Assembly: GCF_032191775.1 (NCBI RefSeq)
Contig: NZ_CP132507.1
Coordinates: 2,691,001-2,755,000, forward strand
Direction: 5' to 3'
DNA: 64,000 bases
Source of the DNA: Rhodoferax mekongensis
Lineage (GTDB): Bacteria > Pseudomonadota > Gammaproteobacteria > Burkholderiales > Burkholderiaceae_C
Numbering within the stretch: position 1 is the stretch's first letter; every line of letters starts with the position of its first letter. The translations under genes were made by a program, and so were the position numbers. This document shows, piece by piece, positions 12,524 through 34,161 of the stretch. The notes beneath the pieces were generated by a model that saw nothing but the letters and a program-made list of their open reading frames with translations, searched no databases and had not been told where the DNA came from.

Positions 12524-12578
12524 CCCTGGCTTCCCCGCCAGGGCATGAGCGTTACGGACATGCGCTGGGCGCATATCC
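12524..12578 (-). promoter_or_regulatory. Expression-platform hairpins downstream of the riboswitch
   Basis: Two perfect or near-perfect stem-loops lie between the aptamer and cobB in the RNA. The first is GGATATGCGC-CCA-GCGCATGTCC (12556-12578); the second is CCCTGGC-GGGGAA-GCCAGGG (12524-12543), whose 3' arm runs into GGGAGAG. Neither is followed by a run of U, so control of translation or Rho access is more likely than intrinsic termination. Confidence 0.5.
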
Positions 12579-12583
12579 ACCTT

Positions 12584-12792
12584 GTTGGCCGGTATCCGGG
12601 CTGGTGGAGGCAACCTTCATCGTCTTCCCAAGCGCGTGTTCAAAGCGTTCAGTGACCGGGATGAAAGCAGTGCCGGAACGACACGTCCACTTACCGTTGC
12701 GGGGGCAGCGCAGGTTAGGCGTCACCGCATGCGGCCACCCCCTCCTGCTTCCCGTTGAACTGCGGCATGCGAACCACACCGCGAGCACCAAC
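12584..12792 (-). ncRNA. Cobalamin riboswitch
   Basis: Adenosylcobalamin-type riboswitch in the leader of the cob operon. On the minus strand: GGGAAGCAGGAGGGGGTGG (12735-12753), the hallmark CTGCCCCCGCAACGGTAA (12691-12708), and a B12 box AGCCCGGATACCGGCC (12587-12602, family consensus AGCCAGGAGACCTGCC). A closing P1 helix can form between GTTGG (12788-12792) and CCAAC (12584-12588). Known function: represses downstream genes when cobalamin is plentiful. The sequence between it and cobB holds two hairpins. Confidence 0.93.
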
Positions 12793-12844
12793 ACGGCGCA
12801 TTTTACGCAGCTATTGCTTGCGCCACCCCTACAATGAAAGCCTT

Positions 12845-29357: not shown

Positions 29358-30428
29358 TTACTGGAATTGCGACAGGAAGCGGACATCACCGTCGAAGAAC
29401 AGGCGCAGGTCGTTCACGCCATAACGCAACATGGTCAAACGATCCGGCCCCATGCCAAAGGCAAAGCCGATGAACTTTTCAGGGTCCAGGCCCATATTGC
29501 GGATCACATTGGGGTGCACTTGACCGGAACCGGCGACTTCGAGCCAGCGGCCTGCAAGTGGGCCGGTTTGGAACTGAATGTCGATTTCGGCGCTGGGCTC
29601 GGTAAACGGGAAGAAGCTGGGGCGGAAACGCAAAACCAGATCATCCGACTCGAAAAAGGTCCGGCAGAAATCGGTAAAGACGAACTTCAGGTCCTTGAAA
29701 CTTACGTTTTCACCCACCCACAAGCCTTCGCACTGGTGGAACATGGGGGAATGGGTGGCATCGCTATCGACGCGGTACGTGCGCCCCGGGGCAATGACAC
29801 GGATCTCCGGCATTTCACCGGCATAGAGACCTTCCGAAGTGGCACCCGCGGCGGCGCGGTGCGCCTTGACGTGCTGCACCGCATAGCGGATTTGCATGGG
29901 GCTGGTATGGGTGCGCAGCAGGTTGGGCGCAGCCTCGGAGCCACCTTCCACATAGAAGGTGTCGTGCATGGAACGGGCAGGATGGTCTTCGGGCGTATTG
30001 AGGGCGGTGAAGTTGAACCAATCGGATTCGATTTCGGGGCCTTGGGCCACATCGAAGCCCATGGAGCCGAAAATGGCTTCAATGCGCTCCAGCGTCAAGG
30101 AAACCGGGTGCAAACCGCCCTGCCCCCGCTGGCGACCGGGCAATGTGACGTCCAGCGCTTCTGCCTGGAGCTGGGTTTGCAGTTCGGCATCGGCCAATGC
30201 TTGACGACGCTCGGTGAGCGCGCTCTCAATAGCCTGCTTGGCCAAGTTGATGGCGGCACCGCGGGATTTTTTCTCCTCCACGCTGAGGGCGGCCATGCCC
30301 TTCATCAGCTCGGTGATCTTGCCGGATTTGCCCAAGAAAAGGGCTTTGGCGTTCTCCAGATCAGCGGGCGTGGCAGCTTGCAAAAATGCAGCTTTGGCGG
30401 TGTCAACGATGTCGTTCAACTCGGTCAT
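29358..30428 (-). CDS. pheS: Phenylalanyl-tRNA synthetase alpha subunit
   Basis: PheS of 356 residues, the class II catalytic subunit. N-terminal coiled coil, then motif 1 region around [21 protein letters not shown], motif 2 in [21 protein letters not shown] and motif 3 in [22 protein letters not shown]. An intrinsic terminator lies just upstream, between it and rplT. Confidence 0.98.
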
Positions 30429-30457
30429 AAATAGGTACTTGACGATTCAAATCAATG

Positions 30458-30492
30458 AAAAAGGGCTAGTGCTTTTTCAAGCGCTAGCCCTT
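30458..30492 (-). terminator. Intrinsic terminator/attenuator between rplT and pheS
   Basis: In the transcript a stem of 13 pairs with one mismatch: AAGGGCTAGCGCTT-GAAA-AAGCACTAGCCCTT, then TTT. It ends 29 bases before the pheS ATG, leaving no room for a full promoter behind it. No Phe-rich leader peptide was found. Its 5' arm overlaps a dispersed-repeat copy. Confidence 0.8.
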
Positions 30493-30530
30493 GTTTCTGG
30501 TGCGCGGAGTGCTACTGAATCAATAGCACT
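30469..30530 (-). repeat. Dispersed repeat copy D, before pheS
   Basis: On the minus strand: GCTATTGATTCAGTAGCACT then CCGCGCACCAGAAACAAGGG and CTAGCGCTTG. A diverged copy whose end supplies the 5' arm of the pheS terminator stem. Confidence 0.6.
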
Positions 30531-30541
30531 CTGCTGCGGAC

Positions 30542-30901
30542 TCAAGCAGCCAGTTTGGCTTTCACTTGTTCCACAATGCGAGCAAAAGCAGCCATGTCGT
30601 GGATAGCGATATCGGACAGAACCTTACGGTCGATCTCGATGTTCGCTTTCTTAAGACCATTGGCAAACTGGCTGTATGTCAGACCGCATTGACGGGCTGC
30701 CGCGTTGATACGGGCAATCCACAACTGACGGAACACACGTTTCTTGGTACGACGGTCACGGTAGGCATATTGCCCAGCCTTCATTACCGCTTCTTTGGCG
30801 ATACGGAAGACATTACCGCGGCGACCGCGGAAACCCTTAGCAAGGGCCAGAACTTTTTTATGGCGGGCGCGAGCCGTTACACCACGTTTGACGCGAGGCA
30901 T
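30542..30901 (-). CDS. rplT: 50S ribosomal protein L20
   Basis: L20 of 119 residues, very basic, with the conserved start [17 protein letters not shown] and the [20 protein letters not shown] and [14 protein letters not shown] segments. It binds 23S rRNA early in 50S assembly and in many bacteria represses its own operon. It follows rpmI by 25 bases. Confidence 0.98.
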
Positions 30902-30926
30902 GTGATTACTCCTTGTACGTCGTTAA

Positions 30927-31130
30927 TTAAATACCACGACCGGGCAGCATCTGTGCCATGTGACCCATGTTGGTCTCATGAACAGCTGCGGAACCGCGCA
31001 AGTGGCGTTTATTTTTAGTGGTCTTCTTGGTCAAGATGTGACGTTTGAAGGCTTGACCGCGCTTAACGGTACCACCTGGACGGACGCGGAAGCGTTTCTT
31101 CGCCGCGCTCTTGGTCTTCATTTTGGGCAT
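30927..31130 (-). CDS. rpmI: 50S ribosomal protein L35
   Basis: L35 of 67 residues: [19 protein letters not shown] start and [21 protein letters not shown] 31130 is preceded by GGAG with 7-base spacing; upstream in-frame residues are not part of the protein. Confidence 0.98.
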
Positions 31131-31295
31131 GTTCATGCTCCTTTTCATTTGTGCTCGTGAGGCGTCTGGAAAACGACTTCCAGCCTTGTTGGCCCCGAGC
31201 CACTTGTGCAACACCCGTTGCCGGGTTTGCTTTTTGCAAGTCACTTTTCAGCGACTTGCCAACTCCGGGCAGGTGACCAGACCTGCCCCGAATAC
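31131..31295 (-). promoter_or_regulatory. infC-rpmI intercistronic leader
   Basis: 165 bases without a gene. The transcript can form several hairpins, among them GGGCAGGT...ACCTGCCC, GCAAGTCGC...GTGACTTGC and ACCCG-GCAA-CGGGT. In other proteobacteria this position holds the L20 autoregulatory site; whether these hairpins do so here is not established. Confidence 0.35.
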
Positions 31296-31886
31296 TTACG
31301 CTGCAGCTTCCGCCGCAGGCTTGGGAGAGCCGCCACCGGGTTTCTTACGGCCTGGCGCGATCATCATGATCATCTGGCGGCCTTCCAGCTTGGGAAACTG
31401 CTCAACGATGATGGTGTCACCCAACTCGTCGCGCATGCGCTGGAGCATGGCCAAACCAATTTCCTGGTGGGTGATTTCACGACCGCGGAAACGCAAAGTG
31501 ATTTTGCACTTGTCGCCATCCGCCAAGAAGCGACGGATGTTGCGCATCTTGATGTTGTAGTCGCCGTCATCAGTACCCGGACGGAACTTGATTTCCTTGA
31601 TCTCAATGACCGTCTGCTTGGCTTTCGCTTCCGCTGCCTTCTTTTGCTCTTGGTACTTGAACTTGCCGTAATCCATCAACCGGCACACAGGCGGGTTGGC
31701 AGTGGCAGCAATTTCAACCAAGTCAACGTCGAGGTCACCCGCCATGCGGAGGGCTTCCATCAGGCTGACGACACCCAAAGGTTCGTTGTCAGGGCCGGAG
31801 AGGCGAACCTCAGGGGCCATGATTTCACGGTTCAAACGGTGTTTACGTTCTTCGCGCTGGCGGCGGTCACGAAATTCAGTAGCGAT
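31296..31886 (-). CDS. infC: Translation initiation factor IF-3 (AUC start)
   Basis: IF-3 of 196 residues: N-domain with [22 protein letters not shown] and [24 protein letters not shown], linker, and C-domain with [17 protein letters not shown]. The first ATG in frame falls inside the conserved N-domain, so the true start is upstream. The only good candidate is ATC at 31884-31886, with AAGGA and 7-base spacing and an in-frame TGA two codons before it. It gives (M)[22 protein letters not shown] non-AUG start allows IF-3 to limit its own synthesis, as known for E. coli infC (AUU). Confidence 0.93.
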
Positions 31887-31974
31887 GGCTCAATCCTTCA
31901 CAATATCTGCTACACAAACTGTAGCGGTTGCCGCACAGCACGCGCCGTCAAACCAATATTTCCTTGGGGAGACC

Positions 31975-33909
31975 TCAGGATGATTTGTTGGCAATGTCCG
32001 CGGTAATGCGCTCAATGAACGACTCCAGGGGCATTGCACCGAGGTCTTGACCACCCCGGGCACGCACTGCGACAGCGCCTGCTGCCATCTCTTTGTCGCC
32101 AATGACAACCAGATAGGGCAGCTTCTGCATCGAATGCTCCCGTATTTTATAGGTTATTTTCTCGTTACGCAGGTCTAAATTGACCCTAAGCCCTTGATTT
32201 TGCAGCGTTTTGGCCACGCTTCGGGCGTAATCGGCCTGTGCGTCGGTGATATTGAGCACCGCTACCTGCACGGGAGCGAGCCAGGCGGGCAAGGCTCCAG
32301 CGCTCTCTTCAATCAGGATGCCGATGAAGCGCTCCAGGCTGCCGACGATCGCGCGGTGCAGCATGACGGGACGATGGCGGCTACCGTCTTCCCCGACAAA
32401 TTCTGCATCCAGACGCTCGGGCAAGTTGGGATCCACTTGGATCGTGCCACACTGCCACGGACGGCCCAAGGCGTCCTTGAGCGTGTATTCGATCTTGGGG
32501 CCGTAGAAAGCACCCTCGCCTGGCAAGTATTCGAAATCGCAGCCTGAAGCACGCAGACCCTCAGCCAAGGCATTTTCTGCACGGTCCCAACTCTCTTCGG
32601 TGCCGATACGCTTTTCGGGCCGGGTGGAGAGTTTGTAGATGATGTTGGTGAAGCCGAAGTCTTTGTAGACTTTCTGGAGCAAGGTTGTAAAGGCCTTCAC
32701 CTCCTCCTGAATCTGGTCTTCAGTACAAAAGATGTGACCATCGTCTTGCGTAAAGGCACGCACGCGCATGATGCCGTGCAGGCCGCCCGAGGGCTCGTTG
32801 CGGTGGCACTGACCGAATTCGCCGAAACGTAAAGGCAGATCGCGGTAACTCTTGATGCCCTGCTTGTAGATCAAGATATGGCCCGGGCAGTTCATGGGCT
32901 TCAGGGCGTAGTCGCGCTTTTCACTCTCGGTGGTGAACATGTTTTCGCGGTACTTGTCCCAGTGGCCGGTTTTCTCCCAGAGGCTCTTGTCAATAATTTG
33001 AGGGCCCTTGACCTCGAGGTAACCGTTGTCCTGGTACACCTTGCGCATGTACTGCTCGACGCCTTGCCAGAGTGTCCAGCCCTTGGGGTGCCAGAAGACT
33101 GTACCGGGGGAATGCTCGTCGATGTGGAACAGATCGAGTTCGCGACCCAGCTTGCGGTGGTCACGCTTTTCGGCCTCTTCGAGCATGGTCAAGTGCTGCT
33201 GCAATTCGTCCTTGGTGGCCCAAGCAGTGCCGTAAATGCGCTGCAGCATTTCATTGCGATGGTCTCCACGCCAGTAGGCACCCGCCACTTTCATGAGTTT
33301 GAAATGTTTGAGTTTGCCGGTGCTGGGCACGTGGGGGCCTCGGCACAGATCTTCAAACTTGCCTTCGCGGTACAGCGACACGTCTTCATTCGCAGGAATG
33401 CTGGCAATGATTTCGGCCTTGTATTGCTCGCCCAAACTCTTGAAGTACTCCACCGCCTCATCACGCGGCAACACGCGACGCACAACGGGCTCGTCCTTGT
33501 TGGCGAGTTCGGTCATCTTCTTTTCAATGGCGACCAGATCCTCTGGAGTGAACGGCCGCTTGTAGGAAAAGTCATAAAAGAAACCGTGCTCGATCACGGG
33601 CCCGATGGTCACTTGTGCATCGGGGAACAGCTCCTTGACGGCATAGGCCAACAAGTGGGCCGTGGAGTGGCGAATGACTTCCAAACCATCGGCATCTTTG
33701 GCGGTAATGATGGACAGCGCACTGTCGGCGGTCATCTGGAAACTGGTGTCCACCACTTTTGCAGCATCAGCAGACTCGCCTGCGGCTCGGACCTTGCCGG
33801 CCAAAGCTGCTTTGGCCAAGCCGGTGCCGATAGAGGCAGCCACTTCGGCCACGGTAACCGGGCCGGGGAATTCACGTTTGGAACCGTCAGGGAGTGTGAT
33901 GTGGATCAT
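31975..33909 (-). CDS. thrS: Threonyl-tRNA synthetase
   Basis: ThrRS of 644 residues: TGS domain ([14 protein letters not shown]), editing domain with [16 protein letters not shown], class II core with zinc ligand in [11 protein letters not shown], the TQDDGHIFC segment, and a C-terminal anticodon domain ([16 protein letters not shown]). First gene of the operon thrS-infC-rpmI-rplT-pheS-pheT-ihfA. Its leader carries a Thr-rich peptide and attenuator-like structures. Confidence 0.98.
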
Positions 33910-33941
33910 GGTGATGTCGAGGAAAGAGGGTCTTGAAAAGC

Positions 33942-34008
33942 AAAAAGCGCGGAGTGGTCCGCGCTTTACTATGAATTTGGTAGCTGACTGCGCACAAGGC
34001 GCGCGGAC
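33942..34008 (-). promoter_or_regulatory. Candidate thrS transcription attenuator
   Basis: The terminator (33942-33967) is AAAGCGCGGA-CCAC-TCCGCGCTTT plus TT, ending 33 bases before the thrS ATG. Upstream, GTCCGCGC (34001-34008) is an exact 8-base complement of GCGCGGAC (33957-33964), the 5' arm of that terminator, so it can form a competing antiterminator. A short stem AAGGC/GCCTT (34013-34017 with 33996-34000) could mask it. A Thr-rich leader peptide ends 7 bases upstream of the antiterminator strand. This is the layout of ribosome-mediated attenuation. Confidence 0.65.
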
Positions 34009-34021
34009 TACGGCCTTATTC
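33967..34021 (+). repeat. Dispersed repeat copy E, in the thrS leader
   Basis: ACTATGAATTTGGTAGCTGA then CTGCGCACAAGGCGCGCGGA and CTACGGCCTT. A diverged copy, antisense to thrS. It contributes the antiterminator strand of the candidate attenuator. Confidence 0.6.
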
Positions 34022-34057
34022 GCTGATGAATGTTGCCGGTGTAGTTCGCGGTGTCAT
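34016..34057 (-). CDS. Threonine-rich leader peptide of thrS
   Basis: A 13-residue reading frame, [13 protein letters not shown], with four Thr codons (ACA, ACT, ACA, ACA) among twelve residues after the start. An AAAGG ribosome site lies about 10 bases upstream. It sits 14 codons upstream of a competing hairpin pair before thrS. Low charged tRNA-Thr would stall the ribosome here. Confidence 0.65.
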
Positions 34058-34078
34058 AACCAAACTGCCTTTCTCGCT

Positions 34079-34107
34079 CTTATACAAAGTTGATAAGTGC
34101 ATTTTAA
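34079..34107 (-). promoter_or_regulatory. Candidate sigma70 promoter of thrS
   Basis: On the minus strand TTAAAA (34102-34107), 17 bases, TATAAG (34079-34084). A start near 34072 would place the leader peptide about 15 bases into the transcript. Confidence 0.5.
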
Positions 34108-34124
34108 CCGCAGTCTGCATGGAT

Positions 34125-34161
34125 GAAAAAAGGCCGAGCGCCTTGTGAGCGACCCGGCCTT
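34125..34161 (-). terminator. Intrinsic terminator after aceA
   Basis: AAGGCCG...CGGCCTT closed by an inner GCGC-containing stem and followed by TTTT on the minus strand, 19 bases beyond the aceA stop. Confidence 0.8.

Follow-up and report, generated by a model that had tools for sequence, protein, structure and literature searches.

A candidate ribosome-mediated attenuator with a threonine-rich leader peptide upstream of thrS in Burkholderiales

Known controls of thrS and how this locus compares

In E. coli, the trp, thr, his and phe operons carry leader-peptide attenuators, and the pheM-pheST attenuator lies in the gene string thrS-infC-rpmI-rplT-pheS-pheT. For threonyl-tRNA synthetase, the other known controls are the T-box and the E. 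coli thrS translational operator, at which ThrRS represses translation via tRNA-like hairpins and which has no terminator or Thr ORF. Lopatovskaya and others (2010) reportedly surveyed attenuation of amino-acid and aminoacyl-tRNA operons, and Vitreschak and others (2004) is reportedly a further survey. The passages covered in the literature gave no description of this leader in Burkholderiales; an earlier prediction for thrS may stand in these two surveys. In the available part of one report, attenuation is named for trpS, leuS and pheST and none was found for threonine in Actinobacteria (PMC1262725), and thrS is not mentioned in the main text of another, as far as it was available (PMC2965389). 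For Streptomyces lividans, the available text describes thrL, MKRVRPFLETTPGFVPAR, before thrS and proposes attenuation (PMC8079986).

We analyzed a 64,000-nucleotide stretch of the Rhodoferax mekongensis genome (the window; positions 2,691,001 to 2,755,000 of the 3.89 Mb contig NZ_CP132507.1) in which thrS is preceded by a Thr-rich leader that, with a probability of roughly 0.87, is a ribosome-mediated transcription attenuator controlling thrS by the supply of charged threonine tRNA. Like the E. coli trp, thr, his and phe attenuators, the locus has a short ORF rich in cognate codons, three exclusive segments, an intrinsic terminator and a stop codon adjoining segment 2; unlike them, it would control thrS and no biosynthetic operon, and the start of its ORF is almost invariant in nucleotides. 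With pheM-pheST it shares an attenuated tRNA-synthetase gene and the gene string; however, the Thr attenuator heads the string here, and inspection by eye of the region before pheS (30540-30430) showed no Phe-rich ORF. The E. coli thrS operator has the gene in common with this locus, where a Thr ORF and a terminator are features. The S. lividans leader, as described in the available text, is alike in its Thr codons before thrS and its proposed attenuation, and differs in its leaderless transcript, the lack of a clear terminator, its two Thr codons and an unrelated peptide (PMC8079986). A preliminary description, made from the letters of the window, had presented attenuation of thrS as a solution separate from the operator and the T-box; our analysis supports such a solution, but it had already been proposed in Streptomyces, as the available part of that report states (PMC8079986). 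The proposed mechanism is classical attenuation, for which S. lividans is the one earlier proposal at thrS that we found in this partly available literature.

Layout of the aceA-thrS interval

All elements of the preliminary description were found on the minus strand, in the aceA-thrS intergenic interval (Table 1). A ribosome site and an ORF with four Thr codons had been claimed, and both are present: the ORF reads ATG ACA CCG CGA ACT ACA CCG GCA ACA TTC ATC AGC GAA TAA, so that 4 of its 13 codons are for the cognate amino acid, and GAAAGG lies ten bases 5' of it. The claim of a segment complementary to the 5' arm of a terminator also held, as GTCCGCGC (34008-34001) matches exactly, as reverse complement, GCGCGGAC, which covers the 5' arm and the first loop bases; so did that of a strong terminator close to thrS, the end of the T-run lying 33 bases before the thrS ATG. 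Downstream of thrS and in the same direction are infC, rpmI, rplT, pheS and pheT (identified by ORFs and, for all except pheT, by Pfam). In ThrS, the nearest relative with a name is Rhodoferax sp. TH121 (93%). The window leader folds with a z of -2.9, and this value together with conservation across many genera places the arrangement beyond chance.

Table 1. Features of the thrS leader region, in positions of the window
Feature	Position	Strand	Basis
aceA (isocitrate lyase)	ends 34180	-	Pfam
Terminator-like hairpin after aceA	34144-34130	-	sequence scan
Predicted sigma-70 promoter of thrS: TTTTCA 34129-34124, 17 bases, TAAAAT 34106-34101	34101..34129	-	consensus scan and relatives
Shine-Dalgarno-like GAAAGG of leader ORF	34068..34073	-	sequence; columns (nearly) invariant in two alignments
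Leader ORF, Thr at codons 2, 5, 6 and 9	34016..34057	-	sequence, relatives
Segment 1, CGCGAACTAC, within leader ORF	34041..34050	-	pairs with segment 2 in MFE fold
Segment 2, GTAGTCCGCGC	34001..34011	-	partner of segment 1 (via 34011-34002) or segment 3 (via 34008-34001)
Segment 3, GCGCGGAC, 5' arm and loop of terminator	33957..33964	-	2:3 pairing in relatives
Interspersed repeat copy (GCTACCAAATTCATAG), between segments 2 and 3	33969..33984	-	genome copy count
Intrinsic terminator: stem 33967-33944, 10 pairs, loop CCAC; T-run 33946-33942	33942..33967	-	scan, fold
thrS, regulated gene in the proposed model	31975..33909, ATG at 33909	-	Pfam, ORFs

The window leader matches no Rfam family at the gathering score, and at E up to 10 the interval 33900-34160 gave four weak unrelated matches and no T-box or threonine operon leader. 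The thrS of Firmicutes is T-box controlled, and we considered whether this leader could likewise be a tRNA-sensing T-box, or another known Rfam leader; this was rejected because there is no match to the Rfam covariance models, and its probability is close to nil, as the scan of the whole window at the gathering score found just two elements, a cobalamin riboswitch and a tRNA, neither of them at this locus. The riboswitch lies at 12570-12807 on the minus strand (74.6 bits). The interspersed repeat at 33969-33984 is dispensable for the attenuator model. This near-palindromic repeat, GCTAYNAAATTNATAGYA, occurs 57 times in the genome (G000) when one mismatch is allowed, and the reversed control 0 times; 0.01 copies are expected by chance in the window. 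By eye, similar copies were also noticed in the leaders of some relatives and in two regions without the leader (L094, L107).

For the promoter, the preliminary description had proposed the hexamers TTAAAA and TATAAG, 17 bases apart. They are present in the sequence but not conserved: TATAAG in its GCGAG context occurs in only 3 of 70 leaders, and we dropped these hexamers as the thrS promoter. A transcript from TATAAG would start inside the ribosome site. In contrast, TANAAT is found within 90 bases 5' of the ORF in 52 of the 70 leaders, as compared to 6% in mononucleotide shuffles, and in 31 of those 52 it lies 48-51 bases before the ATG; the window copy is TAAAAT, with TTTTCA 17 bases further upstream. 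Because TANAAT is conserved, and TATAAG is not and would place the start inside the ribosome site, the leader is very likely transcribed from TAAAAT, with a predicted start near 34094, and the hexamers proposed earlier are probably wrong. A transcription start downstream of the leader ORF had been named as an observation that would speak against attenuation; the conserved predicted -10 box instead lies upstream of the ORF.

Judging from gene order, control may extend to infC, rpmI and rplT, as had been supposed. We sought a sigma-70-like promoter at 30300-32100 and found none, which fits co-transcription. In the relative Cupriavidus metallidurans, infC and rpmI have listed start sites of their own, according to the available part of the report (PMC9045368). 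Two hairpins occupy the rplT-pheS interval (30540-30430, minus strand), GAGTGCTA...TAGCACTC and a terminator-like one at 30492-30461, and their arms could pair with each other in an alternative way. The apparent start codon of infC (about 31889, minus strand) is ATC, the first in-frame ATG lying later, inside the conserved N-terminal domain; E. coli infC starts at AUU.

Conservation and distribution of the leader

To count leaders we used 108 upstream regions, taken from 110 thrS loci (L001, L004-L112) of which two are cut inside the gene; a few duplicates of one genome are among the loci (L026/L086, L012/L095). The MTPRT start (an 18-mer that spans the beginning of the ORF, up to three mismatches being allowed) is present in 74 of the 108 regions and exact in 68. 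The distribution of mismatch counts has two peaks: of the 34 remaining regions, 23 have eight mismatches. In the 74 MTPRT leaders, codon 2 is ACA in 73, codon 3 is CCG in 74, codon 4 is CGA in 71 and codon 5 is ACT or ACG in 73. The near-invariant third positions of codons 2-4 indicate that an RNA-level constraint exists. One of the 74 leaders (L029) is decaying, with ATA for the start codon and Thr5 changed to Ile, and keeps the terminator-like hairpin.

Thr codons were counted in 77 leaders that differ by at least 15%, drawn from the 108-region set and from other families; since these were picked by start motif, their first codons are fixed by choice and codons 7 onward are free of this selection. 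At codons 7 onward, we found 91 Thr in 632 codons in frame as compared to 7/555 and 14/555 in the other frames (14.4% vs. 1.9%, or 21/1110; base composition predicts 6%). The peptide beyond the start varies freely while the Thr codons are kept, as in MTPRTTTTTTSTSTEV (a Leptothrix) and MTPRTTTTTPTRV (a Roseateles). Conservation of the Thr codons in relatives, a check that the preliminary description had put forward, is therefore seen in frame.

The 34 regions without MTPRT include one from the same genus as the window (L087). Four of them (L055, L058, L063 and L082) have another Thr leader, and in 25 of them, L082 included, a hairpin and then a T-run lie near thrS, indicating that a hairpin can stand there without this leader. 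These 25 relatives, like the almost invariant third codon positions, would suit an unregulated terminator or 5' stabilising hairpin, with the short ORF a side effect of some conserved RNA or initiation sequence. We consider this improbable, as the in-frame Thr excess lies past the invariant block, Thr runs persist in families that lack the block and the sequence that separates ORF and terminator shows more complementarity to both of its neighbours than shuffles do (see below).

To follow the leader more widely, we searched with a covariance model built from 32 leaders, which are partly among the genomes searched. At E <= 1e-10 it gave one match each in 119 of 150 genomes of the family, and all 119 matches lie 12-94 nt before thrS on the same strand. 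In the order, 24 of 250 genomes have a match at this threshold, all 24 just upstream of thrS when compared by eye. Weak matches (E 1e-10 to 0.01) were left uncounted and include sites far from thrS and antisense terminator matches. The 18-mer occurs within one mismatch in 27 of the 250 genomes of the order; exact copies and copies that differ only at the first base (CGTT...) are all before thrS, and five other near-matches are not, so that 25 genomes remain. In 274 genomes of the class, the exact 17-mer gave three matches, all in the window's own family, and none in the 271 genomes labelled as the same class only. On a ThrS tree (quick method), the presence and absence of MTPRT needs 14 changes, at least 7 of which are forced by well-supported branches; some fall on Ralstonia and Bordetella, whose Thr leader is a different one, and the others lie inside Comamonadaceae and kin, including L087, which argues that the leader was probably lost several times. 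The element is not universal in the order.

For leaders without the MTPRT start, we added 80 upstream regions. Other families of the order supplied 70 of these, and 69 of those 70 together with three Ralstonia loci and one Bordetella locus make up 73 loci without MTPRT. An in-frame CGA-AC[TG] (R-T) core is present in 30 of the 73, from 13 named families and the Ralstonia and Bordetella loci. After this core, Thr makes up 56 of 249 codons in frame (22.5%) as compared to 7/219 and 10/219 in the other frames (3-5%). In the same 73 loci, the reversed-motif control gave 4 ORFs with 0/58 Thr; controls with CGGAC[TG] and CGCAC[TG] gave 2 ORFs each, with 1/36 and 3/23 Thr. With other Arg-Thr codon pairs there were 5 ORFs and 9/44 Thr, indicating that the excess of Thr does not depend on the CGA codon. 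Examples from other families are MFRTRTTTQSC, MSFRTTTTGSLNLA, MPRTRTTTGVFSRRG and MFLPLARTTTRNFRPMSR, and the Ralstonia peptide is MIQAPRTTTASERQ. At least one of the 30 loci is probably a chance match, namely L197, in which only one base separates the end of the ORF from thrS. The remaining 43 loci have no ORF with the R-T core, and five of these (L147, L148, L164, L181 and L182) have MTPLT- or MRPPTT-like ORFs. A general scan for Thr ORFs that took the lowest-energy hairpin as terminator was too blunt (160/188 had a hairpin; 71/160 at 5/100), and it was replaced by the motif-anchored scan because several loci gave the aceA terminator and ORFs inside aceA.

Taken together, these comparative data (74/108 MTPRT starts, 119/150 model matches and the in-frame Thr) support the ribosome-mediated attenuation of thrS that had been suggested from the window sequence.

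Two observations concern the surroundings of thrS. In many families of the order, a tRNA-Val (GAC) gene immediately precedes thrS or its leader. A scan found it in all 24 loci examined (among them L147, L154, L155, L162, L168, L171, L203, L212, L080 and L136), these loci having been preselected as ones where a tRNA had already been seen by eye. In six leaderless, Limnohabitans-like loci (L008, L009, L010, L011, L014 and L053), we saw by eye an inverted repeat with differing arms that flanks the conserved (C)GTAAAAT between aceA and thrS, and a bare terminator-like hairpin after it; the inverted repeat is perhaps an aceA terminator that overlaps the thrS -10 box.

Exclusive pairings and predicted response to ribosome position

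As in a leader-peptide attenuator, the 1:2, 2:3 and 3:4 pairings are mutually exclusive. In an alignment of 32 leaders (two misaligned rows of 34 were left out), 83% of the 1:2 cells are paired as compared to 15-44% with one strand slid, and 92% of the 2:3 cells over seven pairs as compared to 20-57% (88% over eight pairs). For 3:4, the intrinsic terminator before the structural gene, 92% of the cells are paired as compared to 31-63%. Column shuffles already give 80.3% paired for 1:2 (observed 83.1%) and 90.3% for 2:3 (observed 92.4%), and two pairs in each of these helices change on both sides within the close family; covariation is weak because the cores are nearly invariant there. The preliminary description had looked to relatives for covarying 2:3 and 3:4 stems: the alternative pairing is present in them, and recurs with different sequence in other families, whereas the covariation is weak.

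We also compared the complementarity of the stretch between ORF and terminator, summed over leaders, with dinucleotide shuffles. For 60 MTPRT leaders (those of the 77 with an available thrS upstream region and a terminator), z was -8.3 for 1:2 and -10.7 for 2:3. Leaders of other types, 28 in number because the search string missed one of 29 named ORFs, gave -6.3 and -4.3; since the leaders are related, these z-scores overstate independence. In 58 of the 60 MTPRT leaders, the two pairings compete for 4 or more bases of a single stretch. Taken singly, leaders beat the shuffles at 5/100 in 16/71 cases for 1:2 and 23/71 for 2:3, and the script found no terminator in 7 of 78 leaders.

To relate these pairings to the ribosome, we masked its footprint and computed the equilibrium fold of the truncated RNA, which is not a kinetic simulation. 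In the window leader, the probability that segment 3 pairs upstream is 0.02 with no ribosome, 0.67 with Thr2 in the A site, 0.64 with Thr5, 0.51 with Thr6 and 0.00 at the stop codon. Across 60 leaders the means are 0.22, 0.55, 0.47, 0.40 and 0.20, respectively, and the Thr5 value exceeds the stop value in 53 of the 60. In this model, both for the window and for the mean of the 60, a ribosome at a cognate codon frees the antiterminator and one at the stop codon does not. The antiterminator forms without a ribosome in 12 of the 60 leaders and at the stop in 9, and 10 of the 60 stay below 0.25 at every ribosome position tried, showing no switching in the model. When the intervening stretch was shuffled in the 60 leaders, the contrasts fell: Thr2 minus none is 0.331 in real leaders vs. 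0.088 (sd 0.027), Thr5 minus none is 0.245 vs. 0.091 (sd 0.020) and Thr5 minus stop is 0.267 vs. 0.161 (sd 0.036). The shuffled means are 0.43 with no ribosome, 0.52 at Thr2, 0.52 at Thr5 and 0.36 at the stop, so that pairing of segment 3 under a stalled ribosome is about equal in shuffled and real leaders (0.52 and 0.52 vs. 0.55 and 0.47). In the model, the contrast of the real leaders comes mainly from their low no-ribosome value (0.22 vs. 0.43); segment 3 is kept free without a stalled ribosome, which matches the role of segment 1.

The first 17 bases are conserved beyond what classical attenuation calls for, and this is the only feature of the leader of which that can be said. This 17-nt block, conserved more than the model requires, and the GGT or CGT before the leader start, which resemble Thr anticodons, could point to ThrRS or another protein that binds the leader, perhaps at GTTATGACACCGCGAAC, and controls termination or translation as an E. 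coli-like operator; however, the block is missing in families where the Thr run persists and where, taken as a group, the pairing does too, and no stem with an anticodon-like loop was seen by eye at the block in the fold, and we regard such binding as very unlikely. There is some small chance that the GTTATGACACCGCGAAC block acts as a second signal in addition to stem 1 and the Thr codons, such as a pause that codon context or the nascent chain causes at MTP-R(CGA)-T, or a bound factor.

In the attenuator that we infer, transcription would begin near 34094 and a ribosome would start on the Thr-rich ORF. When charged threonine tRNA is short, the ribosome would stall at codon 2, 5 or 6 and cover segment 1, so that segments 2 and 3 would form the antiterminator and RNA polymerase would continue into thrS and perhaps into infC, rpmI and rplT. 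When charged threonine tRNA is ample, the ribosome would reach the stop codon and cover the start of segment 2; once the ribosome is released, or if the ORF is not translated, segment 1 would pair with segment 2. In each of these cases segment 3 would be free, the terminator would form and transcription would end before thrS. The cell would thus very probably make more threonyl-tRNA synthetase when charged threonine tRNA runs short.

If true, this attenuator adds a further way of controlling threonyl-tRNA synthetase to those already known, and one that is widespread in an order with many environmental species; a second signal at GTTATGACACCGCGAAC, if it were real, would give the thrS attenuator of the order a sensing step that is absent from classical attenuators. 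Close relatives with and without the leader are natural pairs in which the worth of tRNA-synthetase attenuation to the cell may be judged.
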